A stretch of 64,000 nucleotides of DNA, from positions 62,001 to 126,000 of the forward strand of contig JAPPFJ010000031.1 in the NCBI GenBank assembly GCA_028877215.1. Reading direction: 5' to 3'. Every line of letters begins with the position of its first letter. Position 1 is the stretch's first letter. Of the stretch, positions 47,785-64,000 are shown in pieces. The translations under genes and the position numbers were made by a program. This DNA is from Gemmatimonadota bacterium. Its GTDB lineage: Bacteria; Latescibacterota; UBA2968; GCA-2709665. The notes under the pieces were generated by a model. It saw only the letters and a program-made list of their open reading frames with translations. It made no database searches and was not told the origin of the DNA.

Positions 47785-50727
47785 TTACGCGCTCGTTGAC
47801 TGAACCGTTTGACGCCGCGCGAGCGCGGCAAAGACCCCGTTGCGCTCGACAAGGTGCCGGTAGCTGCCGCTTTCCACGATACGCCCGGCGTCCAGCACGA
47901 AGATTCTGTCAACGTCGCGGATCGTGCTCAGCCGATGGGCAATGACGACGCGGGTCACCCCCAGCCCCTTCAGGGACGATTGTACCACTGCCTGTGCCCG
48001 GTTGTCCAGGGCGCTGGTGGCTTCATCGAAAAGTATAATGCGCGGCTTGCGGGCGAATGCGCGCGCGATCAGCAGACGCTGCTTTTGTCCTGCCGAAAGA
48101 CCCACGCCGCCTTCCGGTATGATGGTATGCATACCCATCGGCATCGCCCGTATATCTTCCTCAAGCGCCGCCGCTCTGGCGGCGGCCCACGCCTCTTCAT
48201 CGCTCAACGGCGACATCCCGGCGATATTCTCGAATATATTTCCCGCGACAATCTGTCCGTTCTGAAGGACGACGCCCATATGCCTGCGGAGGACTGTCAG
48301 GTCCAGGCTGGACAGGTCGTGCCCGTCCAGAAACACCGTCCCTGACTCCGGCCGCTCGAAGCCGAGCAACAGGCGGTAGAGGGTTGATTTTCCGCAGCCG
48401 GAGGGTCCCACGAACGCGACGTAGTCGCCCTGCCGGATTCGAAACGATACGCTGTCGATCGCCTTTGACGCATCCGGACTGTATCGAAAGTTCACGCTCG
48501 AGAATTCCAGCTCGCCCTTTATGTCCGAAAGCTCGATGCGTCCGTCCGCGGTTTCGGGCGTGGCATTGAAAATCGGCCGTACGCGCTCGAGAAGCGGGAT
48601 CACGGCGATTGCGGTTGCCGCGGCGGAGGTGAGGGCAAACACTGCGGCGGTGAGCTGGCCGAACGCGGCATTGAAGGACAGAAAACCTGCCAGGTCGAAT
48701 GTCGATCCTCTCCCGTCCAGGATGGCGTGCTGCACCGACTCGAAGATGACGATAAGCGCCAGGGGATGAAACATACCGACAACGACGTATTGCCCTGCGG
48801 TCCACTTCAGCGCGGAGAAGGCGGCCTGTTTCTGCCGGGCGAAGCGCCGGGCCCAGCGCGCCAGCGCGAAGGTCTCTGAATTGGCGACCCGAAGCTTGGG
48901 GAGGCCGGTTATCAGTTGAAACACGAATCCGTTGATCGCTCCCTGAATGCGAAATACGTCCCGATAATGACGAAGCTGTCCCCTTGCCAGAAACCATGTC
49001 GCGCCCACCAGGACCAACAGCAATCCACAGACGTACAAAGCGAGCGACCAGCTGTAGTAGAAGAGCAATGCGAGATTGAATACGGAGAAGATGCCGCCCA
49101 TGGCCGCACCCACGGCCGCGAAGGAGATGATGCGTCTGATCTCGCTGATTCCGTTCGCGCGGTTTTCAAGGTCCCCCACCGTGTAGTCGCGAAAGAACGG
49201 TGCGCGAAGCGCAATCAGCCTGCTCCAGATGGCGGACTGGAGGCGCTCGTCGACGCGACCCTCGATCCTCAGCAGGGCGATTCCGCGCACAATCTCGAAG
49301 ACCGCGTTGCCGAAAGCAGCCAATAACAGCGCCATCAGTGCGACGGACCACAGCGAGATTTCTGCTCGGGGAATGATGCGGACGAGCAATTCGCCGGTAA
49401 GTATCGGCGTCAGGAGTGACGCCAATCCGCCCAGGATGCCCACCAACAACACCGTACGAAGGTCCCCCCCACGGCGATGCAACGAGAATCGAAGTACCGA
49501 CCTGCCCGTCTCGATGCGGTCGGGCAGCGGCGCGTAGAAGGCCAGGCCGCCCGGAGCGATACCCGCCACGTTGCTTTCGTCAACCACGAAAGATGTACTC
49601 GTGACCGGATCAACCGCACGGTACGTGCCTCGGTTGTCGGAAATCAACGCGAGCGGCCGGTCCGTGCCGCCTTCGCCCCCTTTGAAGCCCACCAGGGAAG
49701 GGCCGTCCTGCCGCCACCATCCGGGATCCAGCGAAATCCATCGCGTCCGGATCCCCGACCTGCGGGCAATCCCCTCTACGGCCTCCACGGACGTCTGTGC
49801 CTGCCCGGACTTCGCCGGAATCTCCAGCGAGGCCCCGCAGGAAGAAGCCACCATGGCTGCCGCCGCATGAAGCGGCGTCCCGTCCTTAAAAGTGGCGGTC
49901 GCGTTGTCTCCCGGCCCCGCCAGAATTCTCTGGAATCCGCCGAGCGCCCGCGTAACCGCAGTTCTCCTGACTTCGTGCGCATTGCGGCGTCGGTCCTGGA
50001 CGTTCCCGGCCGTTTCGGACTCGGCCAGAATCGCGAATTCCAGGATTCGGGTGCTGAAGCCATCAAACGCTTCCCAGAACCGGTCCGTGAGAAGGGCGGC
50101 AGGGGTATAGACCGCGGACACCGCCGCGTCGGCGTCGATCCGCATCCATGTTCGATCGGTGACCGGCACGAGCGGACTGCCCGCCGGCACGGCCAGTGCA
50201 TCGCGCCCTGCAAGGTTCATCGGCGCATTTGCGCTGAGCCAGATGACGTCCAGATGTTGTGCGCTGAGCATGCTGCCGGCTGCATAAGAAACGTCCGGTT
50301 CCGCCTCCAGCAGTTGCGCGTCCCGGGGAGGCGGCCGGTCCTTCACAATGAATTCCGAGATCCGGGAAATCCATTCGTCGATCCAGCTGGTCGCGGCAAG
50401 ATCGAAGTCGTCCGAAGCGACGCCGTCCCGCTCACCCCGGACGATGACCGCGTCGAGTGATGGTACGGCGAGGAATCCGAACGTGCGATGAGACTGAAGC
50501 GATTGCCTGACCGTGTCAGCGCCAAAGGCCATTTCTCCGGCCGGTACGCGGGAGATGAAGTTTCGGCGTCCCGCGGCTTCGTTGTCTTCCAGTTCGACGG
50601 CGAAGACGTCCAGGTATCCCCGTTCAACGAAGTAGACGACGGCCGTGTCGTCCATCGGGAACGGCCGGTGGGCTCCGGTTTCGATCCGGACGCCGCGTAT
50701 GCGTTCGATGAGCGGTCTTTCAGGCAT
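47785..50727 (-). CDS. NHLM-type export ABC transporter permease/ATPase (no peptidase domain)
   Basis: Long N-terminal region, six TMs, VGPSGCGKSTLYRLLLGFE, LSAGQKQRLLIARAF; adjacent to the peptidase-containing partner. Confidence 0.88.
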   Translation of the reverse strand: MPERPLIERIRGVRIETGAHRPFPMDDTAVVYFVERGYLDVFAVELEDNEAAGRRNFISRVPAGEMAFGADTVRQSLQSHRTFGFLAVPSLDAVIVRGERDGVASDDFDLAATSWIDEWISRISEFIVKDRPPPRDAQLLEAEPDVSYAAGSMLSAQHLDVIWLSANAPMNLAGRDALAVPAGSPLVPVTDRTWMRIDADAAVSAVYTPAALLTDRFWEAFDGFSTRILEFAILAESETAGNVQDRRRNAHEVRRTAVTRALGGFQRILAGPGDNATATFKDGTPLHAAAAMVASSCGASLEIPAKSGQAQTSVEAVEGIARRSGIRTRWISLDPGWWRQDGPSLVGFKGGEGGTDRPLALISDNRGTYRAVDPVTSTSFVVDESNVAGIAPGGLAFYAPLPDRIETGRSVLRFSLHRRGGDLRTVLLVGILGGLASLLTPILTGELLVRIIPRAEISLWSVALMALLLAAFGNAVFEIVRGIALLRIEGRVDERLQSAIWSRLIALRAPFFRDYTVGDLENRANGISEIRRIISFAAVGAAMGGIFSVFNLALLFYYSWSLALYVCGLLLVLVGATWFLARGQLRHYRDVFRIQGAINGFVFQLITGLPKLRVANSETFALARWARRFARQKQAAFSALKWTAGQYVVVGMFHPLALIVIFESVQHAILDGRGSTFDLAGFLSFNAAFGQLTAAVFALTSAAATAIAVIPLLERVRPIFNATPETADGRIELSDIKGELEFSSVNFRYSPDASKAIDSVSFRIRQGDYVAFVGPSGCGKSTLYRLLLGFERPESGTVFLDGHDLSSLDLTVLRRHMGVVLQNGQIVAGNIFENIAGMSPLSDEEAWAAARAAALEEDIRAMPMGMHTIIPEGGVGLSAGQKQRLLIARAFARKPRIILFDEATSALDNRAQAVVQSSLKGLGVTRVVIAHRLSTIRDVDRIFVLDAGRIVESGSYRHLVERNGVFAALARRQTVQSTSA

Positions 50728-50731
50728 CGCG

Positions 50732-52951
50732 TCAATCCGACATGACCAGGGTTCTGTAAAGGCCGTCTTCCGTGATCAGGCGGTCGTGCGTGCCGCGCTG
50801 GACGATACGGCCCCGGTCGAGAACGACTATCTGGTCCGCGTCTCTGATTGTACTCAACCGGTGGGCGATGATGAGGCAGGAGCATCCGCGGCGTCGAAGG
50901 TGGTCGTCGATCTCGACCTCGGCAATCGGGTCCAGCGCCGCGGTGGCCTCGTCGAGCACCAGTACGGCGGGATTCCTCACAAGCGCACGCGCGATCTCCA
51001 GGCGCTGCCGCTGACCGCCGCTGAAATTGCGCCCTCCCTCGCTGACGGGGCAATCGTATTTCATCGGCCTTGCGGAGACGACGTCATGGATTGCGGCATC
51101 CCTGAGCGCCTGTACCACGTCGCGTTCTTCGACGTCGGGGTCCCACAGCGTGACGTTTTCCCGCACGCTGGCCTCGAACAGGACAACTTCCTGATCCACG
51201 TAGGATACGATTTCGGCGAAACGGGCGGGCGGGACGTCCTCGAATGCCTGCCCGTCGATGCGCACTGATCCGGACCAGGGCGTCAGCAGACCGCACACGA
51301 TCCTGGCGATCGTCGACTTTCCGCTTCCCGAAGCGCCTACCAGCGCCACGCGGCGGCCCGGCCCGATGGAAAGACTGAAATCCTCGATGAGGGGCGGCTC
51401 CGTGGCATTGTAACCGAACGTCACGCCTTCGAGATCGATAAAACCCCGGGGCACGGACGCGTCCGATACAGGCGCTACCGTGTTGATGCTCCTGAGCGTT
51501 CGCTCGTCGGGGGCGTAGTTCAGAACGTCGTCGAGCCGGCCGATATCAGCCCTGATCATCTGTAGACTGGCGCCGAACCGAACCAGACCTTCAACAGGTC
51601 GTGAGAAACTCAGCGTGAGGCTCTGAAAGGCGATCAGCCCGCCGATGGAAAGCGCCCCGTCGAGGATACGAATACCGCCGTATCCCAGGACGATGATGGA
51701 GGTAAGCGCAGAGAGCAGAACGGGCGCCACGTTCGCAACTGTCGACACGTAATCGAGGCTCTGCTGGGCGCGAAGCGCATTGGCGTGGATACCGGACCAT
51801 CGGGCGAAGAAATCGTCCTCGGTACCGTTGGCCTTGAATGTCTCGATGATCCTGATGCCGTTTATGGAGGCGCCGGCAACCCTTCCCTTCTCCTTCAGAA
51901 GCCTCCGGTTGGCGTTGTCGCGGGCGCGTGCCGCGAGATGCAGCACGATCAGATTTATGGCAACCATCCCCAATGCGATCAACGTCAGCGGAACATCGTA
52001 CGATATCATGACCAGCGCATAAAACACCATCGTGAATACGTTTATCGCATTGACGGCCAGTTCGCCGGAAAGCAACCGAGCGACCGTGTCATTCGACGCC
52101 ACGCGGCTGGCGATGTCACCGGCATAGCGCTGGCTGAAGAACAACATCGGCAACGTCGCGACGTGCCAGAAGAAGCGCACCGTCGAGATAACGGACAGCT
52201 TGGTCTCCATCCTTGCCAGGAGGATACGCTGCAGCCAGGTCAGCGCGCCCTGGACAACAGCCGCGAAGGCCAGTCCGATCAGCATCGGAGACACCCAGGC
52301 GCTGTTCTGCCCGATGAGTACGTCGTCTATGAATACCTTGATCAAGGTCGGGACGGCCACGCCAGGCACAACGAGAGCCAGGGTCGCCAGCGCCGCGAAC
52401 GCAAACGGGCTTCCCGCGTCGCCAAAGCGGTCGCGCAATCCGCGAATCAGATCGGGCTGCGGCCCGCCGGGACTGAACCCCGACGAAGGCGCGAAGCCGA
52501 AGCAGACGCCCGCGAAGCCCTCGACGAACTCCTGTCTCGTTATCCTTCGAGGGCCTTCACCGGGATCGTTGATATAGACTCTGTCGCCTTTGATCCCTTC
52601 GAGTACGACGAAATGGTTGAACTCCCAGAAGACCACCATGGGAAACGGAATGTCGAACAATTGCTCATGCCGACTGCGGAAACCCCGGGCAATGAGACCG
52701 TATTCCCGTGCGGCTTTCAACATATTGGCGGCATTGGCGCCGTCCCTTGAGACGCCGCAACGTATCCGCAGCGCTTCGAGGGGTACCCATCGTCCGTGAT
52801 AGGCGAGCATGATGCCCAGACAGGCGGCGGCGCACTCCGTGGTCTCCATCTGCAGAATCGTCGGCGTCCTGAAACGTCCGCCCCGATCGGACCGGAGGTT
52901 TGGATGCAGCTCAGGGTGGGGATTCAATGACTCAGTTTTTCTTTGATCCAT
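50732..52951 (-). CDS. NHLM-type export ABC transporter peptidase/permease/ATPase
   Basis: C39 motif TPTILQMETTECAAACLGIMLAYHGRWVPL; Walker A GASGSGKST; FSGGQRQRLEIARAL. Confidence 0.92.
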   Translation of the reverse strand: MDQRKTESLNPHPELHPNLRSDRGGRFRTPTILQMETTECAAACLGIMLAYHGRWVPLEALRIRCGVSRDGANAANMLKAAREYGLIARGFRSRHEQLFDIPFPMVVFWEFNHFVVLEGIKGDRVYINDPGEGPRRITRQEFVEGFAGVCFGFAPSSGFSPGGPQPDLIRGLRDRFGDAGSPFAFAALATLALVVPGVAVPTLIKVFIDDVLIGQNSAWVSPMLIGLAFAAVVQGALTWLQRILLARMETKLSVISTVRFFWHVATLPMLFFSQRYAGDIASRVASNDTVARLLSGELAVNAINVFTMVFYALVMISYDVPLTLIALGMVAINLIVLHLAARARDNANRRLLKEKGRVAGASINGIRIIETFKANGTEDDFFARWSGIHANALRAQQSLDYVSTVANVAPVLLSALTSIIVLGYGGIRILDGALSIGGLIAFQSLTLSFSRPVEGLVRFGASLQMIRADIGRLDDVLNYAPDERTLRSINTVAPVSDASVPRGFIDLEGVTFGYNATEPPLIEDFSLSIGPGRRVALVGASGSGKSTIARIVCGLLTPWSGSVRIDGQAFEDVPPARFAEIVSYVDQEVVLFEASVRENVTLWDPDVEERDVVQALRDAAIHDVVSARPMKYDCPVSEGGRNFSGGQRQRLEIARALVRNPAVLVLDEATAALDPIAEVEIDDHLRRRGCSCLIIAHRLSTIRDADQIVVLDRGRIVQRGTHDRLITEDGLYRTLVMSD

Positions 52952-54171
52952 GGCAGGACGAGCGCGGCTGGCGGTTTGGTGGACTCCCGGATTTCGACGG
53001 TTGCAAACGTTCCGGGTGTGATTTCAAGGCGAGTGGCGTGCGGCGATGTCCAGGCGAAGCCGCTCCGCGTCGTCGCGTCCGGCGTGAGCGCGATTCGTGC
53101 CGGATATGGCGGGCCCGCTGCTGAGAAGATCGCGGCAAGCTCCTGGTTCCGGAGCACGGCGACCATGCCGTTCAGACTCGCCGGAAACTCGGAAACGTGT
53201 TCTACAGTACCAATCATGGAGCCGTACTCCTCGCGTCGGACGGTGGCCGGAGAAACGAGGACGGACATACCCGCCTTGACGCTCTTGCCATCCATCGCAG
53301 AGATATAAGCCAGCACGTCCAGACCTTCTCCACCGGTCTCAATGCTCAGTACGGACTCTCCGGGGTTGAGCGTAGCGCCAATCTGCGCCTTGATCTCGAT
53401 GATCCTCCCGGAGACCGGGGCGCGAATTCGCCAGGTCTCGATGAGCGCCCTGAGTTCGCTGACGTCCAACTCGGCTTTCAGGAGTTCGCCCTTGGCGTGA
53501 GAGAGCCGGGAATTGATGCCGCTCCGCCGCCGAACGTCGTCCACTTCGAGCGCGTCCCTCCGGCGCAGTAATTCGAACAGATTCTGCTGCAATGCGCTCA
53601 GCGCCTGTTCGCTTCGCTCGACGGCCGTCCGATCGATCATACGCTTTTCGAACAGCTTCCGGTCGTCACGAAGGCGCATGTCGGCCTTTTCTTTCAGTTC
53701 GCGGTTTATGCGTTCCATCTCGTCCAGGCGGTCCCGCTGCCTGGCGATGTTCTCCGCCGCAAGCCTGTTCTCCTCATTGGTCTCGGCGATGCGATCCCGG
53801 AGTTCCAGCTTGTGCTCGGCCACGAGCGCCACGGCGCCCTCCAGCCGTTCACTCGTCTCCACGTCGAAGATTTCAGCCACCACGTCGCCTTCACGAACCT
53901 GCTGTCCGACGGTGGCCGTGATTCGCGCCAGTCTGCCGCCGCCAGACGACGCCGCGTCGAACACCACACCTTTGCGACTCAGAAAAATGCCTTCCGCTTC
54001 CACGTAGATGGAAATCTCGCCCCAGATACTCCATGCCACCACAGCGCCGGTCAACGCGACGAGGACGCAGAGCCACAGCCATGTCATCGGCGTTGTCACG
54101 TAAAGCGCGCGGTCCAGGTGTTCGGGCGTCCTCAGGCGATCAAGTGGATTTTTCCGGTCGGGTTCGTTCAT
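52924..54171 (-). CDS. NHLM-type HlyD-family secretion protein
   Basis: Single TM, VFDAASSGGGRLARITATVGQQVREGDVVAEIF, coiled coil, RIRAPVSGRIIEIKAQIGATLNPGESVLSI. Confidence 0.88.
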   Translation of the reverse strand: MNEPDRKNPLDRLRTPEHLDRALYVTTPMTWLWLCVLVALTGAVVAWSIWGEISIYVEAEGIFLSRKGVVFDAASSGGGRLARITATVGQQVREGDVVAEIFDVETSERLEGAVALVAEHKLELRDRIAETNEENRLAAENIARQRDRLDEMERINRELKEKADMRLRDDRKLFEKRMIDRTAVERSEQALSALQQNLFELLRRRDALEVDDVRRRSGINSRLSHAKGELLKAELDVSELRALIETWRIRAPVSGRIIEIKAQIGATLNPGESVLSIETGGEGLDVLAYISAMDGKSVKAGMSVLVSPATVRREEYGSMIGTVEHVSEFPASLNGMVAVLRNQELAAIFSAAGPPYPARIALTPDATTRSGFAWTSPHATRLEITPGTFATVEIRESTKPPAALVLPWIKEKLSH

Positions 54172-54365
54172 ATTTGAGAAGGCCGGGAAACCAGGCGTGC
54201 GGCATTTCAATCAAATCTATGGCAATGCGCACGGTCGGTTTGCGCCATCAAAGTACCGGCGTGCATCGGGACAACGAGAGCGGTGGCCAGATTGACATAT
54301 GTGAACAATTATCTCGAAACGCAAGAATAATATGATTTTTTCGTGATTTCCTTTGATGCCAGCGA

Positions 54366-54557: not shown

Positions 54558-55064
54558 TCAGGGCATATTATGAAATTCAGGCGATAATTGCGGTCCTTTC
54601 AATGACTTATTCATGATATTCAGAGCGAATTGGAAATCGCAATCCGACCTCGGCAACTCACTCTTGCGAAAGACAATCACCCTTAAACGTACGTCGTCAG
54701 CCGGGAAGTGACCCAAGACCACTCGATGGCCAAAAATACGCACCTCCCGCACGCAGATGACCAAGTTCTAATTCCACGTCGATCCACCCTGAACGTCGGC
54801 GACAACACACTTTATCACAGAACCAGCGACAGCCACTGTAGACAGTTGAGAGCGCTTGCCTCCGAAACGACAGATGTCGTCGCAAATGGCGGCAGTCGCA
54901 GCTTCCGTTTTGCCCGTCGCTGACGGAGACGCAAACAGAACGTCATGTCCCTTGCCAATCTCGGGCATTACCGCTTTCTGACCGTCGTTTTGTTTGCGTC
55001 GCTCGAAGAAAATCGGAAACGTACCCTGCATCATACTGCACAATTGCGCCCGATCCTCATTCAT
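54558..55064 (-). pseudogene. Decayed DEAD/DEAH-type helicase gene (N-terminus with Walker A, internal stop, apparent loss of the core)
   Basis: MNEDRAQLCSMMQGTFPIFFERRKQNDGQKAVMPEIGKGHDVLFASPSATGKTEAATAAICDD...STWN[TAG 54768-54770]NLVICVREVRIFGHRVVLGHFPADDVRLRVIVFRKSELPRSDCDFQFALNIMNKSLKGPQLSPEFHNMP. No DExD/H box or C-terminal helicase motifs between the two pieces. Confidence 0.65.
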
Positions 55065-56520
55065 CCCAGGGTAGTACCTCGCCAGCAACTTGACGCGCTG
55101 CCTCGTCAACCGATTTTGCCAGTTCATCTATTCCCACCTCTCGTGTATGGCTGAGCAGAACCGCTGGGCAGAAGCCTGCCAGCTTGGTCCAATTTCGCAA
55201 TATTCGCTCATCGACCGGTGCTTCTCCGAATCTCGTACGCAATATACCGGCGATCCGCGTCCGAACGTCAGGATCGACAAGGATCTGCACCTTAGGGCCG
55301 AGACGTTCTCCACACTCTTTGAGAAAATCCAATACCCATTTCTCATAATCGGCATCATTTGCCGACGAGAGTAGCACCACATCGCTCTTATCGTGAATAA
55401 AGACGCTTATCTCCCCGACCTTGCGCCGAAGGTAACGCGTGTCCTCCCCTTCGGTCAATCCGACGAATAATGCGAAATGAGGTCCCTCTCTCCAGAAACG
55501 TGGTAGATCGAAATGTTCATAGTCGTCGTCGGGATTGTCAAGATTATAGCGAGGTCGATGTGCACATCGTGCAAGAACATCAAAGAAGTTGTTCGCGCGG
55601 GCATATCGGTTGAACGAATACGTGCGCACATGCTCCGCTTCGTCGATTATTATAACAAGGCCCTTGTAGCCCAGCGACTTGACGATATCATGTAGAACGA
55701 CTAAGTTGTATGCATAGACAATGCCAGTATCCTTTACCTGCGGAAGGGTTGGGATCTTTTCTCTGTACCCGGCTTGCCAACTCAGCGATCTGATAGTCCG
55801 GATCTGCTTCATCTGCCCTGCAAGCCAGTTGACTGCAGACACATAATCCGAATCGTCCCGACGATGTGAGAGATACAGTAGTGCTTTCAACCCCTGACTG
55901 AACCAAGGCGAGCGTCTCACATACGAAAGACCCCTGATCGTCGTCCAATTGTCCCGTATTTCCTTGACAAGATCGAAAAAGTCGAGGCTTCGGCTGCCGT
56001 CCGTGCGTGTGGGGAATTCAAGACCGCTCGTAAGCGCCTGGTAAACTGTTGAGGGTTTGGCAGGATCCGCTGCCTTTGGATCAAGTTCAACTGAGGCGGT
56101 AACCCATCCATCCCGGAGCGCAACCGACTTAACAACGCGAAGATGATGAGACTTTCCTGATCCATAATAACCCATGTAGACTCGACAGAGCCCGCTTTCT
56201 GGTGCTCGATCCAACAAATGACTGATTTCTTCCGCCAATTCCTCTCCGCCGATCGTCAGGTTGACCAACCGTTCTGGATCAGTTGGCACGACACCAAGAT
56301 TCACTGCTTCAAACACCTTACGAAACGCTTGATCTGACACTGGCTGCGATTGTTGTGGCTGCGACCCAGGGTCAGGATGATTTAATCGGGGACGTAAATC
56401 TCTGACTTCAACATCGAGTTCCTCACCAAAAAACTCGACTGTGGCGACATCGCCTAGAACAGAGACAACTTTCCCAATGCCGAAAACTAGATGGTCAACT
56501 TCCAAACCGACCTCGATCAC
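55057..56520 (-). CDS. BrxD-like (DUF2791) P-loop ATPase, copy B
   Basis: RLVNLTIGGEELAEEISHLLDRAPESGLCRVYMGYYGSGKSHHLRVVKSVAL...GLVIIIDEAEHVRTY; GTG start overlapping copy A stop. Confidence 0.75.
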   Translation of the reverse strand: MIEVGLEVDHLVFGIGKVVSVLGDVATVEFFGEELDVEVRDLRPRLNHPDPGSQPQQSQPVSDQAFRKVFEAVNLGVVPTDPERLVNLTIGGEELAEEISHLLDRAPESGLCRVYMGYYGSGKSHHLRVVKSVALRDGWVTASVELDPKAADPAKPSTVYQALTSGLEFPTRTDGSRSLDFFDLVKEIRDNWTTIRGLSYVRRSPWFSQGLKALLYLSHRRDDSDYVSAVNWLAGQMKQIRTIRSLSWQAGYREKIPTLPQVKDTGIVYAYNLVVLHDIVKSLGYKGLVIIIDEAEHVRTYSFNRYARANNFFDVLARCAHRPRYNLDNPDDDYEHFDLPRFWREGPHFALFVGLTEGEDTRYLRRKVGEISVFIHDKSDVVLLSSANDADYEKWVLDFLKECGERLGPKVQILVDPDVRTRIAGILRTRFGEAPVDERILRNWTKLAGFCPAVLLSHTREVGIDELAKSVDEAARQVAGEVLPWDE

Positions 56521-57809
56521 CCGTGCTCTCCATCAAGAGGAGGTTCATTGTCACTGACGAAATCCGTCGCCTGTTCCGTGCTTATTGAGCATTCTCTCTG
56601 CAGCTGTTGGCCAAGAAACCGACAATATTGATACACGAAAAATCGTGGTTTCGGCGTCTCGAACCAGTTTTTCTCTTGTGTAGAGACGATTTCTTTCATA
56701 TTCGATTTTTGAATCTCCTGATTCCATTTTTTGTTGTGAGCCTGACTGAAGACAGCCAACAATCTCTCACCTATGCGGTAGATGACTTCTCTTGAATTTG
56801 TTTCTTCCAAATTGATAAGTGGCACCAAAGGACTGCCCTTCGAAAACGCCGTGCTGCCTATCCGATCCTGAAGCGCTCTATATTTGCTAATCACCTCCGA
56901 TCGAAAATCCTGTGTAGCAGCGTATAGAAACATTATCCCACCGAACTCGCCCTCGGCGTTTTGATTGATCATTGTCAGTAAATTCTCGATGGCTTGCCTC
57001 TGCTTAACTGAACCACGTCGGAAGGAGGTTATTCGACTCCCTTCATCAAAGGCAATAAGGAACCCTTGGTAGGCCATGCGTGTTCTCAGAAAGGCGATAA
57101 CCGTCTTTAGTCGTCGGAAAGCGTTATCATCGCGCACTGGTTCAAAAAGCCCCATGTTCCTGAGGGTGGTTGACCGCGCGTTGTCGCCCTTGACCCACGC
57201 AATCAATTCGTAATCGCTCCCGGAAGTGATTGCACCGCACGCCAACTTCAAGAGGCGCTGACTTAGTGCGGTAAGTGCGGAGGCCATCTGCGGGTCTGGA
57301 GCACCTCGCCAAAGGCCACCGATCTGCTCCTCGATTTGTCTTTGTACCAAATCCGGCACATTGTTGCCCGGTTCGGCACCGAGTTGGTTTATTCGTCGTC
57401 GAATCCAACTGTCAATTAGAACATCAAGACCCTTGTCGTCACTGCCATCCAATTGCGCTTCAAAGGGTGGCTGAAACGATCTCATAGTCGCGCGAAAAAT
57501 CGCGGACGGGGAATTGAACGGACACTCTATCCCCACAGACACAATCGCGGTGATAACGTCCTGCTCGCTAGCCCGTTGGGCAAGACTATTGATGAACTGA
57601 GTCTTGCCGCTCCCGTAATCCCCTTCCAGATATTTGAAGCATCCCAATCCCTCTGCAAGCTGTCCACGGAAGTAATTTTGATCAAGGGCATCAAGAATAT
57701 GATCCGTACCCACATTGATGAAATATGAATATTTACCCGGGGCGATCGGGGAGTTCATCAATCGACGCAGCAAATTCCGAGCGTCATCGCTGTTGATCGA
57801 TACTTCCAT
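56517..57809 (-). CDS. BrxD-like (DUF2791) P-loop ATPase, copy A
   Basis: DDARNLLRRLMNSPIAPGKYSYFINVGTDHILDAL...FKYLEGDYGSGKTQFINSLAQRA...GFLIAFDEGSRI. Confidence 0.75.
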   Translation of the reverse strand: MEVSINSDDARNLLRRLMNSPIAPGKYSYFINVGTDHILDALDQNYFRGQLAEGLGCFKYLEGDYGSGKTQFINSLAQRASEQDVITAIVSVGIECPFNSPSAIFRATMRSFQPPFEAQLDGSDDKGLDVLIDSWIRRRINQLGAEPGNNVPDLVQRQIEEQIGGLWRGAPDPQMASALTALSQRLLKLACGAITSGSDYELIAWVKGDNARSTTLRNMGLFEPVRDDNAFRRLKTVIAFLRTRMAYQGFLIAFDEGSRITSFRRGSVKQRQAIENLLTMINQNAEGEFGGIMFLYAATQDFRSEVISKYRALQDRIGSTAFSKGSPLVPLINLEETNSREVIYRIGERLLAVFSQAHNKKWNQEIQKSNMKEIVSTQEKNWFETPKPRFFVYQYCRFLGQQLQRECSISTEQATDFVSDNEPPLDGEHG

Positions 57810-57820
57810 GTCGTTCCTCC

Positions 57821-58729
57821 CTATCTGACGACTTTCCTACGTATGTAGATCATTGGTCTTACAACTGTTCCTTCCGCATTTGCCGGTACGAAAAACGAAC
57901 GCGACTTTGTGCCATGAGCCTGATTGAGCGTAGCCGGAATCAGTTCAAAAGAGTTAGATTGACCCAAAGATGATATCTGCCGCCGCCAATTGATCAGATT
58001 TGCAATAAAAACTGCCTCTGGAACGTCCTCGAAATTCCGACGCGATGGTCTTCCCCAGAACCGTTGACTCTGTACAGCGATCTTGAACAGCCGTGCAACG
58101 TCAGCGATCAATACGTTGTCATTCCCTGTGCGGTGTCTCGCCATGGTCCACGCGAACGCTAATCGTTCAAGGAAGTCATCAACCGGTAGAGTCCATTTTT
58201 CAACTGCCTCATCGGCGGTCTTAAATCCACCTACAACATAGTCTATATCGGCAGGGATCTTATCGATAACTGGATAGTGAGGTGTCATCGACCAAGCCCA
58301 GTTCTGGCCACCCTTGTCAGAGACAAGCACCAAACGACCGGCAAAAAACTGATTGTCTCTGTAGCCGGTCCGCACGCCCTTCAGATGGCTAAGCGCCTGA
58401 AGTGCAAACCTTCTACGGTTTTCAGGATGACGCATGCGTTCAGCATGCTGCTTCACGGCGAGCTTAGCTTGTTCGATCTCGCGGGCAGCCGCGGGTCCAA
58501 GAACGGACTCTTTGGGCAATGCCAGCGCGGCTAGCTCCTGCTGTCGCTCGATCCGTGCAGGGGGTATGTCGAGACCGTCCGCACGAGTTTTGCCTTGACC
58601 CAGAATCCGAGGCAGCCGGGCGGCCAGAATTCCCCTTGCGTTGGCAAGTAATCCTGTGCCTTTTGCATAATCCTCGAATGCGGGAAACAGGACTTTATCG
58701 GTGGCCTTCAATGTACCTACTCCCATCAA
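57821..58729 (-). CDS. Unknown-function component of the defence-like operon
   Basis: 302-aa ORF between the UvrD-like helicase and BrxD-like genes with 3- and 11-bp spacings; no recognised motif. Confidence 0.6.
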   Translation of the reverse strand: MMGVGTLKATDKVLFPAFEDYAKGTGLLANARGILAARLPRILGQGKTRADGLDIPPARIERQQELAALALPKESVLGPAAAREIEQAKLAVKQHAERMRHPENRRRFALQALSHLKGVRTGYRDNQFFAGRLVLVSDKGGQNWAWSMTPHYPVIDKIPADIDYVVGGFKTADEAVEKWTLPVDDFLERLAFAWTMARHRTGNDNVLIADVARLFKIAVQSQRFWGRPSRRNFEDVPEAVFIANLINWRRQISSLGQSNSFELIPATLNQAHGTKSRSFFVPANAEGTVVRPMIYIRRKVVR

Positions 58730-58732
58730 GGT

Positions 58733-61036
58733 TCAGGATTGCGTTACATCGAATAGATCTCGCGACACACCCCGAAGCACCGAGGGATATTCCTCAGCGA
58801 TAAGGCCTAAGCGTCGGGTAGGCCGCGAAAGACCCACATAGGCTCGTTCTCGCGTGAAGTTCAGCGAAGCACTTTTGACCCCTTCGAGTCCCAGAACGAT
58901 ACAGGCATCGAATTCAAGACCCTTAATTCGTTCAACTGACGTCGTAATTAGACCATCACCCGAGGGTTCCCACTCTCGAGCCAGTGGGACATTAAGGTTC
59001 GCTAACTCCGATCGAAGTCGCGACAGCGCCTGTTCGTCTTCGTTAATCTGAATAAGCGCGACACTTTGAACGACATCGGAGCGTCTAAGCACGGCCACGA
59101 GTTGGCTGATACGCAACGCTTGGTCGTGCGGTGGAGTAATAATCAGTTGAGGCTTTTTGTCTTCCAGCGTCTCGTTAACATCAAACGATGGGCGCTCTTT
59201 AAAGGCGACCTCATAGAACCCCTGCAGAAAGCGACCGATCTGCCGGCTTTGTCGTATATTTCGGGCAAACAGATAAATCTGATCGGTTCCGGGTCCGCGT
59301 AGCGAGTGGCCCACATGGAGCGCTTTCGGCGAAGTCATTCCATGAACTGGGCTGACAATCTGCCTAAAATCCGAAGAGACCGTCAATGCACCATCCGGAT
59401 CCACAAGCGATCCAATCAACGAGGCCTCCGCGACACAAAGGTCTTGCGCCTCGTCTATCACAACATGCGTCCACCGTTGATCACCATGCAGCGCCAGACC
59501 GATCGCTGAAGGCACCTCGCGGAACTTTAGCCCAAACTCACTTGTCTCGGGAAGAGCAAAACGAAGGAGCCAAGCGAGCCAAGGTCGGTCCTCGGGGCCG
59601 TAGAGACGATCAGACCAGTCCTTGACCGCACTACCCAGCACATCCGCCTCGTCGACGCGGTCCCCCGTCCCGCGTCTCATCCTGACTGCCGCCTCGGATT
59701 TCATATCCCCGAAATAGGACATCAGTGCGGAGAGTGGATCATAAACCGCGTAGAGCCATTGCAGAAAAAAGGTGTCAAAACGTGCGCCGGATTCCGCTGA
59801 CATCGATGCTCGAGCCTTGGTATAGCTGTCGACAACAGCCGAAAACACTGCCTTCATCGACAATTCTGATCGCAATGGATCTGAGCCTATCCGGGTACGA
59901 TTGCCATGGGAAGAAAGGTCACCCGCCAGAGTTCTCAAAGCACTATGTTTATCTTGGTTCACAGTCATCCAAGGGGCGTCAGTAACAGATTCCAATCGGC
60001 TGGCAATCTGTCGCTCATAGACTTCCCACAACCGCCCAAGGTCGTAATGATCGGAGAGGCCGAGCACAGCGGCTCGCGCAGCGCTCTCCAGGCGTGACAG
60101 TCTTCTTTGCCGCGGACGAGCACTGTGCTTGAACACCCACGCGTGATCCAGATACCGTTCAATGAACTCGTTTACCGGCTCAACCACAAATTCGGGAATG
60201 TTGAGCTGATCTATCAGCAGATTCTTCGCATGCTCCACCAAGTTATCGTTGGCCAGAAACACTCGCGTCAGGTCTGGCGAATATGTGACGAGCCGGCTGT
60301 GTTCCTGACGCTCATCCTGTTGATCATACAAAAACCGGATTCGCTGAAAGGCGACTGTCGTCTTGCCCGATCCTGGAGCTCCAGTTACAAGCATCAATCC
60401 AGACATGCGGGAAATAAACGCCGAAACCTGGTCTGGCGTCATGTCCAGCTTGACAGCCTTGAGCCCCGTTTTAGGCCTTGCTGTTGTGCGTGGTCTAACG
60501 GCCCCGCCAGGCTGATAGACTCCCGATAGATCTGGAAACAAACTGTCGAAACGCGCCTTCGCGCGTGGTTTCACGCTTAGTAGTCGATAGCCGTTTGCAC
60601 TTATATCCTTGACTTCGCCTATTCCGAGCGCCAATGCACTTTGAAGGCCGGGATGAGTCCACGCAAGAACGTTCACCGACTGACCATCACTACTAAGGAC
60701 CTCGTTAGCTTTCGAGTTCGTATTTGCGTACCAAAGCTGTTCCCTTTCAAGCGGCCTACCCGAAATGTCAGCTGATTTGGTGTACACTTCCACCATTACG
60801 TGAAAAGCCTCGTCTGCAATGGCTTTAAGGGATTTCCGGTCTCGATCCAGATGTTCCATTCTGCTCTTGTGGGATTTCGTCACACCGAAGCGACTGTCCG
60901 TTTGAGGCGTACGAAGACGCCCGAGTTTACTTCTCGCCACTTCAATCACGAATTCCGCATTCTGCCGGTCTCGTTGAACGCGGTGATTAAGCCCAAATCT
61001 CTTCCTGTCATTTGTGTCCATGTAACCTCCGATCAT
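58733..61036 (-). CDS. UvrD/Rep superfamily I helicase-like protein with unusual N-terminal region
   Basis: GLMLVTGAPGSGKTTVAFQRIRFLYDQ...THVVIDEAQDLCVAEASLI...TTSVERIKGLEFDACIVLGLEGV...AYVGLSRPTRRLGLI. Confidence 0.8.
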   Translation of the reverse strand: MIGGYMDTNDRKRFGLNHRVQRDRQNAEFVIEVARSKLGRLRTPQTDSRFGVTKSHKSRMEHLDRDRKSLKAIADEAFHVMVEVYTKSADISGRPLEREQLWYANTNSKANEVLSSDGQSVNVLAWTHPGLQSALALGIGEVKDISANGYRLLSVKPRAKARFDSLFPDLSGVYQPGGAVRPRTTARPKTGLKAVKLDMTPDQVSAFISRMSGLMLVTGAPGSGKTTVAFQRIRFLYDQQDERQEHSRLVTYSPDLTRVFLANDNLVEHAKNLLIDQLNIPEFVVEPVNEFIERYLDHAWVFKHSARPRQRRLSRLESAARAAVLGLSDHYDLGRLWEVYERQIASRLESVTDAPWMTVNQDKHSALRTLAGDLSSHGNRTRIGSDPLRSELSMKAVFSAVVDSYTKARASMSAESGARFDTFFLQWLYAVYDPLSALMSYFGDMKSEAAVRMRRGTGDRVDEADVLGSAVKDWSDRLYGPEDRPWLAWLLRFALPETSEFGLKFREVPSAIGLALHGDQRWTHVVIDEAQDLCVAEASLIGSLVDPDGALTVSSDFRQIVSPVHGMTSPKALHVGHSLRGPGTDQIYLFARNIRQSRQIGRFLQGFYEVAFKERPSFDVNETLEDKKPQLIITPPHDQALRISQLVAVLRRSDVVQSVALIQINEDEQALSRLRSELANLNVPLAREWEPSGDGLITTSVERIKGLEFDACIVLGLEGVKSASLNFTRERAYVGLSRPTRRLGLIAEEYPSVLRGVSRDLFDVTQS

Positions 61037-61634
61037 TAGACTTAAGCATACAAAAAAGAACTTCGCTTGTCAATATCTTTATCAGGTAACCAAAAGTATT
61101 AATATACGCGCGCGTGGAATCTACATCGTATTTATCTGATAGAAAAAGAAATCCATATACAAAATCGAAACGCCAACGATCCATTGCTCACGACGTCGGC
61201 AACCATCCGTTGCAATGCGACGTGTCCGCAACTTTGATCGTGTCCGGTTCAGCTACAAGGAGTTGCGCCGCATTATTCCAAGCCGTTCAGCCGTGGAGAA
61301 CAGCTGAGCGGAGCGTCCTTTTGTAGTTCGCACGGAAAGTGGGTGTCGCCTTGGATATCCCTGAGACGTATTGAAAGGCACTCCGGAATCGGACTTTCGC
61401 GCTGGGCGCGGCCTGCACCTTCTTTAACGCGTACTGTACTGAGAAGAACGCGAGGAATTGGGAGAAAGTCCGAAGGTGGCTGGTCTTTGTAATTGCGTGG
61501 TAATCACTGCTGTCCAAGAACCGTGGGATTCTTGGAGATGAGGTTTGAAAAGTGGATTCGATTGGCGACTATGGACGGGATAGACCCGGATAACGAAAAC
61601 CAGGTTGCCATGGGTTCACGTCAGTTGCAATGCA

Positions 61635-61792
61635 TGTCATTCTGAGCGGAGTCGAAGCATCTCTCGCCGCATGGGTCCCGCGCTGCAGGCGGACGTGCTG
61701 CCTCTCAGGTATCGATACGTGAAAATCGCACCGGGATGATCCGATGCAGCAGTAGATCCTTCGTCGGCCTAGGGGCCTCCTCTGGATGACAG
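61635..61792. repeat. MITE-like dispersed element 1
   Basis: TGTCATTCTGAGCGGAGTCGAAG...CTCTGGATGACAG with inverted ends. Confidence 0.7.
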
Positions 61793-61824
61793 TGGGAAGC
61801 AATATGCTTGACTATCGGCCAACG

Positions 61825-61946
61825 TGTCATTCTGAGCGGAGTCGAAGAATCTCCCGTATTCTCGATTGTACGTGTCGTACATGGCCTTTGTAGACGACCT
61901 TGTGCGCGGACACTTAAACTGGCTCGAGGCCTCCTCAGGATGACAG
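61825..61946. repeat. MITE-like dispersed element 2
   Basis: TGTCATTCTGAGCGGAGTCGAAGAATCTC...CTCAGGATGACAG; start identical to element 1 over >20 nt. Confidence 0.7.
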
Positions 61947-62297
61947 TCTTCGCAAAGGTAGGACCGACTCGTTTCGCCAATGGCTGTGGACGATTTTGCC
62001 AGCCATATATTTCGCGTGTTTTCGCGACTTTCGTAGTGACTCAAACCCGTTTTTGGACAGGTTTGATGCAAATTGAAAAAGGCGATTAAACTGCGGATTA
62101 CCAAGATACATCAGGTCACTGGACGTGAACGGAAAATACGTCCTTTTGGAAGACCCTTACGCCCCGTTTCAGGGGTATTCGTCGCGTCGCCGCGTTGCTG
62201 GTTTTTTCAATTTGGGGTTAACTGTGAACCTGACAGGCAAAAGGCATCCGCCAGACCAACGGATGCCCTTTGTGAGACTGTTATGAATCACGGACCG

Positions 62298-64000
62298 TCA
62301 ACTTCCGAGATGGTAGGTTACAGCCAGCTTCAGCCGACGGCCCTTGGGATCGTGCGTGAAGCCGTCGTAGGCCTGCTCGATATTCACGAGAGGAGGCATT
62401 GCGTCGAGCAGATTCATGCCGGATAGCGCGATGTTCAACCCGTTTGGCATGTTCCACAGGAACGTCATGTCCCATGTTACATACGATTCGATGGTACCGA
62501 AAATACTCTTAATCTTCGAATTATCGGAGCCCATCGACCCGCGGTCCTCGTAAGACGAGATGTAGTTCAGATAGGTCGCAAGACTGTAATCCTGCCAGTA
62601 ATAGCTCCCCGAAATCCGCCCCTTGAACTTTGGAAGGGACGTCGCGATGGGATTGCCGAAGTTCAGGTATCCGGCGGCGTCCGCATCCTCCAGCAGCACC
62701 AGGTTGCCCAGCATCAGCGCCTTTGTCTCGTACGCCAGCGTATAGGTGCCTTCGAGGCCTGCTGTGAACAGTCCTGCTCCCTGCGGGACCCGCGTACCCA
62801 GATGCAGATCGATTCCCGAGGTCTTGAGCCCCGGCCAATTGACGATATCCACCTGCACCCGCTCGAGTTCCGAGGCCGCGCAAGTTCCGGTACCGATTCC
62901 GTCCGGACACACGATAAATTGTTTCAGGGCGTTCTTATTTGCTTCGTCGGCGTATAAGGCGGTAATGGCGCCGTGGGGCATGGAACCGATCACGTCGCTG
63001 AAATCGTAACTCCAGTAGTCCAGTGTCGCCTCAAATCCCGTCTCGGTGACCAGGGCAAGGCCCGCGTTAAAAGTAAATGCACGTTCGGGTTTGAGGTCCT
63101 TGCTCCCGATTCTGTCCACCGTTTGATACGCGTCCGTCTCGTTGATCCACTCGAGGGTCGAGAGCGGGCTCTCATTCACATCGTCCAGCGCTGGCGTGCG
63201 GAACGTCGTCTGAACAGAACCGCGCAGGAACAGGGTTTGGTCCGCTGATTCCACCAGTTGATAGCGCCACCCGAACTTGGGATCGAAACTGCTCGCCACG
63301 TCGTGGAACTCGTAGTTGGCGGCAAGCTGCACGCCAAACCGCTCTCCCAGGCTCAGCGGAGTCTCGGCAAAGAAGCGATGCACCGTCTGAGATTCATCAT
63401 ACGGCCGATGCACGTTGGTGAACGCATAGGGGCCGAACCTGTCCTCAGCAGAGCAGTTCCTGTCGCCGACAACCGGACACGGGTTGATGGTCACGTCGCC
63501 CTCGTCGTTGGGGTCCCCGCTGGCATTGAAGAGCCGGAACTGGTAGCCCGCCGCGTAACTGAAGACGTCCTCGATCCAGGTCCCCGTCATCGTCGCGTCG
63601 GCCACCAGCATGTCGGCCGTGCTCTGCATGTCCACTTCCTGGTTGAGCCAGAGTCGAAGTTCCTCACTGTTGGCAAGCGCGGCGCGGTAACCGGGATTCG
63701 CCCGGGTTGCATACGCCGAACCGTATTGGTCCGTGAACTCGATGGCATTGCCGAAGGGATTGTAGTACTGGCAGTCGCCCTGACCCGCCACCTTGCCGCC
63801 GAGCGCGCCCAGGCGCATTCCGGCAAGAGACGTCTGATCCGCCACCACGTCAACGCCGCAACGCGGTCCCCCGAAGCCCCGGAAGCCGAGGAAAAGCCGC
63901 TCGATGTATACACCCGGCAGGTTGTAGTTGCCTTCGGTGCGGGAGTAGGAAAGGCCCAGGTCGAAATGCGAGTCCCGCCCGCCGAATCCCTCGAAGTCTC
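62298..64000 (-). CDS. TonB-dependent receptor, C-terminal part (runs off window end)
   Basis: Barrel-like repeats; ...LPKFKGRISGSYYWQDYSLATYLNYISSYEDRG...WDMTFLWNMPNGLNIALSGMNLLDAMPPLVNIEQAYDGFTHDPKGRRLKLAVTYHLGS. Confidence 0.85.
   Translation of the reverse strand, partial: DFEGFGGRDSHFDLGLSYSRTEGNYNLPGVYIERLFLGFRGFGGPRCGVDVVADQTSLAGMRLGALGGKVAGQGDCQYYNPFGNAIEFTDQYGSAYATRANPGYRAALANSEELRLWLNQEVDMQSTADMLVADATMTGTWIEDVFSYAAGYQFRLFNASGDPNDEGDVTINPCPVVGDRNCSAEDRFGPYAFTNVHRPYDESQTVHRFFAETPLSLGERFGVQLAANYEFHDVASSFDPKFGWRYQLVESADQTLFLRGSVQTTFRTPALDDVNESPLSTLEWINETDAYQTVDRIGSKDLKPERAFTFNAGLALVTETGFEATLDYWSYDFSDVIGSMPHGAITALYADEANKNALKQFIVCPDGIGTGTCAASELERVQVDIVNWPGLKTSGIDLHLGTRVPQGAGLFTAGLEGTYTLAYETKALMLGNLVLLEDADAAGYLNFGNPIATSLPKFKGRISGSYYWQDYSLATYLNYISSYEDRGSMGSDNSKIKSIFGTIESYVTWDMTFLWNMPNGLNIALSGMNLLDAMPPLVNIEQAYDGFTHDPKGRRLKLAVTYHLGS

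Follow-up and report, generated by a model that had tools for sequence, protein, structure and literature searches.

The 64,000-nucleotide stretch analysed here (the window; Gemmatimonadota bacterium assembly GCA_028877215.1, contig JAPPFJ010000031.1, positions 62,001 to 126,000) carries on its minus strand a copy of an operon encoding, in order, a HelD-type superfamily I (SF1) motor protein, a protein of about 300 residues termed U302, two BrxD-like AAA+ ATPases (BD1 and BD2) and a BrxHI/SngC-like superfamily II (SF2) helicase. Judged from sequence, this operon is real, recurrent and mobile, and the copy in the window is decayed. Anti-phage defence is its likely role. Our tentative overall reading, which we place a little short of an even chance, is that of a mobile, probably anti-phage system of undescribed type, decayed in the window, in which a helicase loader and its helicase would be coupled to RNA polymerase. 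The most informative feature is probably the presence in one operon of two unrelated modules of RNA-polymerase-associated type, the HelD-type motor and a putative Tudor domain of BD2; HelD-type and PcrA/UvrD Tudor modules bind RNA polymerase in characterised proteins.

The operon in the window and in other genomes

An earlier note on this DNA had described a five-gene minus-strand operon at 54558–61036. Four of its genes are present as intact open reading frames (ORFs) within 55057–61036, all on the minus strand, namely those of the HelD-type protein (58733–61036; 767 residues), U302 (57821–58729; 302 residues), BD1 (56517–57809; 430 residues) and BD2 (55057–56520; 487 residues). The short spacings and gene overlaps given in that note also hold (GTGA at 56517–56520 between BD1 and BD2; ATGAATGA at 55057–55064 between BD2 and the fifth gene). 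The idea of an intact fifth gene has to be given up, as only an N-terminal, frameshifted remnant of the SF2 helicase gene is present (54624–55064, minus strand). The segment 54768–55064 aligns only with the first ~90–105 of ~690 homologue residues, at about 45–50% identity; a frameshift lies near 54.88 kb, similarity then ends in unrelated sequence, and the remainder of the gene is gone. No second copy of this helicase was found elsewhere in the genome, which contains distant helicases only. The three intact ATPase/helicase members in the window retain their catalytic motifs, and U302 retains its conserved residues; as a whole, this copy of the operon is probably inactive.

The operon lies on an insertion. 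In two genomes of the same genus (G004 and G003), the interval from an HlyD gene to a TonB-receptor-like gene is 388 and ~630 bases, versus 8.1 kb in the window. Alignment with these empty sites places the insert at about 54.62–62.30 kb (54624–62304, ~7.7 kb, with approximate ends), and its composition differs from that of its surroundings (GC content 0.516 versus 0.59–0.60 in the flanks). The 3′ part of the helicase gene is missing at the junction of the insert with ancestral sequence. Given this junction, and because the segment from 54558 to about 54623 is common to the empty sites of related genomes, this segment is ancestral flank outside the operon. Upstream of the operon is a promoter-like TTGACA-17-TATGCT (61045–61073, minus strand), although the count of such sites is not above shuffled expectation.

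A BD1 scan of 85,462 species genomes yielded 11 homologous loci, one in a Bryobacterales metagenome-assembled genome (MAG) and ten in alphaproteobacterial genomes (two Rhodospirillales, Pseudorhodobacter, Albimonas, Falsiroseomonas, Bradyrhizobium, a Methylobacteriaceae MAG, Mesorhizobium, Amaricoccus and Novosphingobium). The search for the same gene order, which the earlier note had proposed, found HelD-type protein, U302, BD1, BD2 and helicase in this order at all 11 loci, in two phyla in addition to the window's lineage; this recurrence in a single genome scan means that the order is not due to chance. Beyond the five, no gene is constant among the 11 loci, and the aligned parts are free of internal stops. 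Helicase homologues are intact at 677–699 residues where the contig permits (one is cut off by the contig end), and in one HelD-type homologue the C-terminus is short. Pairwise identities are 59–99%, and correlations between the identity matrices of the individual proteins are 0.82–0.94 for the five, as expected of parts inherited together. The helicase is 97–98% identical among Albimonas (L054), Mesorhizobium (L058) and Amaricoccus (L059), other operon genes of L058 being only 75–89% identical to those of the other two, which suggests a recent exchange of the helicase gene.

U302 was not found in any of 63 further genomes from the phylum of the window. Searches by tblastn gave no match for U302 and the HelD-type protein in plasmids, or for BD1 and the HelD-type protein in phages; the plasmid matches of BD1 and BD2 are distant, and those inspected belong mostly to Shango or BREX (bacteriophage exclusion) systems. 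Further scans for viral copies returned nothing beyond the same Albimonas contig.

The surroundings of the homologous operons point to mobility and to defence. Prophage tail or lysis genes adjoin the operon in Albimonas and Falsiroseomonas (L055), a tRNA gene and an integrase gene lie around it in the Bryobacterales MAG (L051), tRNA genes occur near it at L052 and L053, and a DUF2840 gene occurs near it in Amaricoccus. In Novosphingobium hassiacum (L061:628-5626), divergent genes for BREX BrxC (2074 bits) and BrxA (348 bits) are located just upstream of an intact operon; this BrxC belongs to the adjoining BREX locus, not to the five-gene set. Other neighbours are DpdF-like (625 bits; L060), ZorD/DpdE-like (402 bits; L057), SIR2 (L053) and GajB-like (L058) genes. 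A lack of homologues in defence islands would, according to the earlier note, have spoken against its reading; homologues instead occur within prophages, adjacent to BREX genes and near further genes of defence families, and a link to defence islands or mobile elements is seen in qualitative terms. Such neighbours support a defence-island setting.

The component proteins

The first gene product had been taken for a UvrD-like superfamily I helicase. Its SF1 nature stands, and HelD-type is a better label than UvrD-like. In each of the 12 homologues, the four HelD/HelR models of NCBIfam rank above those for UvrD or PcrA, at scores far below the HelD/HelR equivalog cut-offs (43 bits versus a cut-off of 419). 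The protein is collinear with Bacillus subtilis HelD over ~530 residues, with positions 188, 521 and 715 corresponding to 202, 546 and 732, a spacing that needs helices inserted between motifs I and II, as HelD has; the helicase motifs GAPGSGKTT, DEAQD, VERIKGLEFD and YVGLSRP are retained. In the AlphaFold model, the better N-terminal part consists of a two-helix hairpin followed by strands, as in the NCC coiled coil and NG domain of Mycobacterium smegmatis HelD (PMC7749160). The sole significant PDB match of this low-confidence model is the RNA-polymerase-bound M. smegmatis HelD (6yxu_H; E 5.3e-5, 657 columns). Profile matches and the predicted structure together point to a HelD-type protein and not a generic UvrD. 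Alignment with most homologues begins near residue 16 of the 767-residue ORF, so translation may in fact start at an internal ATG.

The two ATPases conform to the earlier identification as BrxD-like (DUF2791) proteins. BD1 and the divergent BD2 score 132 and 81 bits with PF10923 (BrxC_BrxD), above its gathering score of 22.2, and have conserved Walker motifs; with the BrxD equivalog model they score 81 and 57 bits versus an NCBIfam cut-off of 350. BD1 is a BrxD-like AAA+ ATPase of the ORC/Cdc6 class, whose Walker A GDYGSGKT and Walker B FDEG are preserved across the 12 homologues, apart from one with a G in place of the Walker A D. In BD2, the corresponding motifs are GYYGSGKS and IIDEAEHVR.

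BD2 is predicted to start with a PcrA/UvrD-type Tudor domain, at about residues 4–43 (56392–56520, minus strand). A profile of its first 56 residues, built from 11 family members and a protein of the sister module described below (L047), finds UvrD/PcrA Tudor chains as the best matches in the PDB (7egt, 4c2t, 5dma, 9dqs, 7egs, 6yi2 and 1qhh), with E values from 1.3e-4 (7egt) to 0.075. Pfam PcrA_UvrD_tudor weakly matches 10 of the 12 BD2 members, and the RNA-polymerase-interaction domain of CarD/TRCF weakly matches four of the 12. The Tudor domain of PcrA binds the transcription elongation complex (PMC8318588).

U302 is 62–72% identical to its 11 homologues and has a conserved C-terminal NLINWRR...FELVPATLNQAHG. 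The earlier note had called it unknown, and it belongs to no recognised family; Pfam, NCBIfam and PADLOC (2023) give no match. No significant fold match was obtained with its model, which is too weak for use at a predicted local distance difference test (pLDDT) score of 58.5. Comparison with the ~300-residue protein of the sister module gave a P value of 0.0099 at a probability of 4%, leaving homology unproven.

Relation to known systems and possible mode of action

No named system in PADLOC 2023 or in the papers found matches the operon, consistent with the earlier note, which did not recognise this exact composition as a named system. No paper on the five-gene set was found in the open-access literature, in which the HelD part of the search was weak, the word mostly matching the verb 'held'. 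The suggested resemblance to the ATPase/helicase pairs of BREX-like systems and Shango is borne out by matches of BD1 and BD2 to SngB/BrxD models and of the helicase to BrxHI/SngC models. As in Shango (SngABC: TerB protein, ATPase and DEAD/DEAH helicase), a compact operon places a BrxD/SngB-like ATPase beside an SF2 helicase that resembles SngC; as in the BrxD/BrxHI part of type 2 BREX, BrxD-class AAA+ ATPases accompany a BrxHI-like helicase of the Ski2/Lhr type. BrxD and BrxHI are a recognised linked pair, and BrxD is proposed to load or activate BrxHI, like replicative helicase loaders (PMC12839542).

One explanation is a Shango/BREX variant working like those systems, in which the ATPase/helicase pair would act on DNA, while the HelD-type protein and U302 would be accessories without a role at RNA polymerase. 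The sister modules of the same phylum, which keep a ~300-residue protein, BD1, BD2 and helicase without HelD, are in line with this. However, the conserved five lack PglX, PglZ, BrxC and PglW, and no TerB/SngA match is found among the operon proteins, so that the absence of PglX, PglZ and TerB from the operon had been rightly stated; the BrxD scores of 57–81 bits also set the ATPases apart from BREX. Every homologous locus has two ATPases, in contrast to the single SngB of Shango, and U302, the HelD-type motor and the BD2 Tudor are additions. The HelD-type protein occurs in 12 of 12 copies and co-varies with the other parts, and the BD2 Tudor is retained in all homologues. We regard this explanation as rather unlikely, if a serious one. 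ARMADA type II, for which direct non-abortive defence has been reported, is likewise a helicase-rich operon with SF2 and UvrD-type helicases; it has YprA and BrxHII-like helicases and a PglX-like methyltransferase instead, and BrxD-like ATPases and HelD are unreported there (PMC12458937). In composition, the five-gene set is neither Shango nor BREX, nor ARMADA in its reported form.

In the reading that we prefer, we infer a defence function, targeting of RNA polymerase and the following order of events. BD1 and BD2 would form a loader on invader DNA, which would deposit or activate the BrxHI/SngC-like helicase in the way suggested for BrxD and BrxHI. Through the BD2 Tudor and the HelD-type motor, the complex might be brought to RNA polymerase engaged on the invader's DNA, or might clear the polymerase from it, and invader transcription or replication would be blocked without a dedicated nuclease. 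U302 would be the fifth, conserved subunit and might serve as a scaffold or sensor. Because no nuclease or toxin is recognised in the operon, the system more likely interferes with transcription or replication than cleaves DNA. The stronger proposal, an anti-phage class acting at RNA polymerase, in which a BrxHI-like helicase is coupled to polymerase transcribing invader DNA by the HelD-type motor together with an AAA+ ATPase bearing a Tudor domain, and immunity comes through transcription and not DNA cleavage, we consider doubtful at present.

Several points weigh against this interpretation. The BD2 Tudor match is below the Pfam cut-off, and PcrA-type Tudors bind UvrB as well. The model of the SF1 protein has a mean pLDDT of 48, its fold match uses sequence too, and the template modelling scores (TM-scores) are low. 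The lack of a recognised nuclease or toxin leaves the final blow to the phage unexplained, and no phage challenge of any homologue was found. The defence neighbours were picked as likely candidates without a random baseline.

A non-defence role, in mobile-element maintenance or as a replication–transcription conflict module that clears RNA polymerase and unwinds R-loops or forks, is improbable. ORC/Cdc6-class ATPases, two helicases and RNA-polymerase-type domains would suit conflict resolution, some copies lie within prophages or integrative elements, and PcrA itself suppresses R-loops, whereas the sporadic distribution, the defence-type neighbours including BREX, the homology to BREX and Shango parts and the fact that close relatives live with a broken or absent copy argue otherwise. 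A function in transcription recovery or drug tolerance, comparable to that of HelR towards rifamycins, is very improbable. The SF1 protein does have HelR models among its best matches, and its predicted architecture resembles that of the HelD/HelR polymerase-recycling motors (an SF1 motor with a coiled coil at the N-terminus, a beta-rich domain and helices inserted between motifs I and II). It is very divergent, however, and scores far below the HelR cut-offs; and whereas HelR works on its own, this protein always comes in the five-gene operon with U302, the two BrxD-like ATPases and the BrxHI-like helicase.

For the pairing of BrxD-class ATPases with helicases in BREX- and Shango-type systems, coupling to RNA polymerase as proposed for this operon offers a testable explanation, namely action on the transcribing polymerase. 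If true, it would give a defence role to HelD-type motors, so far described as factors of RNA polymerase recycling and rifamycin tolerance. With the new U302 family and with several cultured bacteria that carry the operon intact (it is intact in Mesorhizobium sp. YM1C-6-2, Novosphingobium hassiacum and Albimonas pacifica), a test of the idea is practical.

Sister modules and the insertion locus

In the same phylum, sister modules have a ~300-residue protein, BD1, BD2 and a helicase in the same positions, with tandem BrxD-like ATPases at 20–39% identity over partial stretches. They differ from the five-gene operon in that no HelD is seen and the helicase is either of 667 residues or a ~1900-residue fusion of DEAD with AAA_11/AAA_12; the fusion is present in most of those at L042, L043, L044, L045 and L046. 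The sister module is possibly an undescribed system in its own right. A Dna2-like neighbour at L061 was considered as a part shared with the sister fusion and rejected, the similarity being that of SF1 helicases in general. On a Deinococcus psychrotolerans plasmid (L038:4945-18747), two sets of BrxD-like ATPase and DEAD helicase occur, with unknown proteins before each.

In the window, the insertion point of the operon is immediately beside the HlyD gene of an NHLM/NHLP bacteriocin export cluster (47785–54210, minus strand), in which TIGR03797, TIGR03796 and TIGR03794 all score above cut-off. The non-coding end of the insert contains a pair of 32-nucleotide direct repeats (61635–61666 and 61825–61856; TGTCATTCTGAGCGGAGTCGAAG...), which resemble dispersed palindromic repeats.

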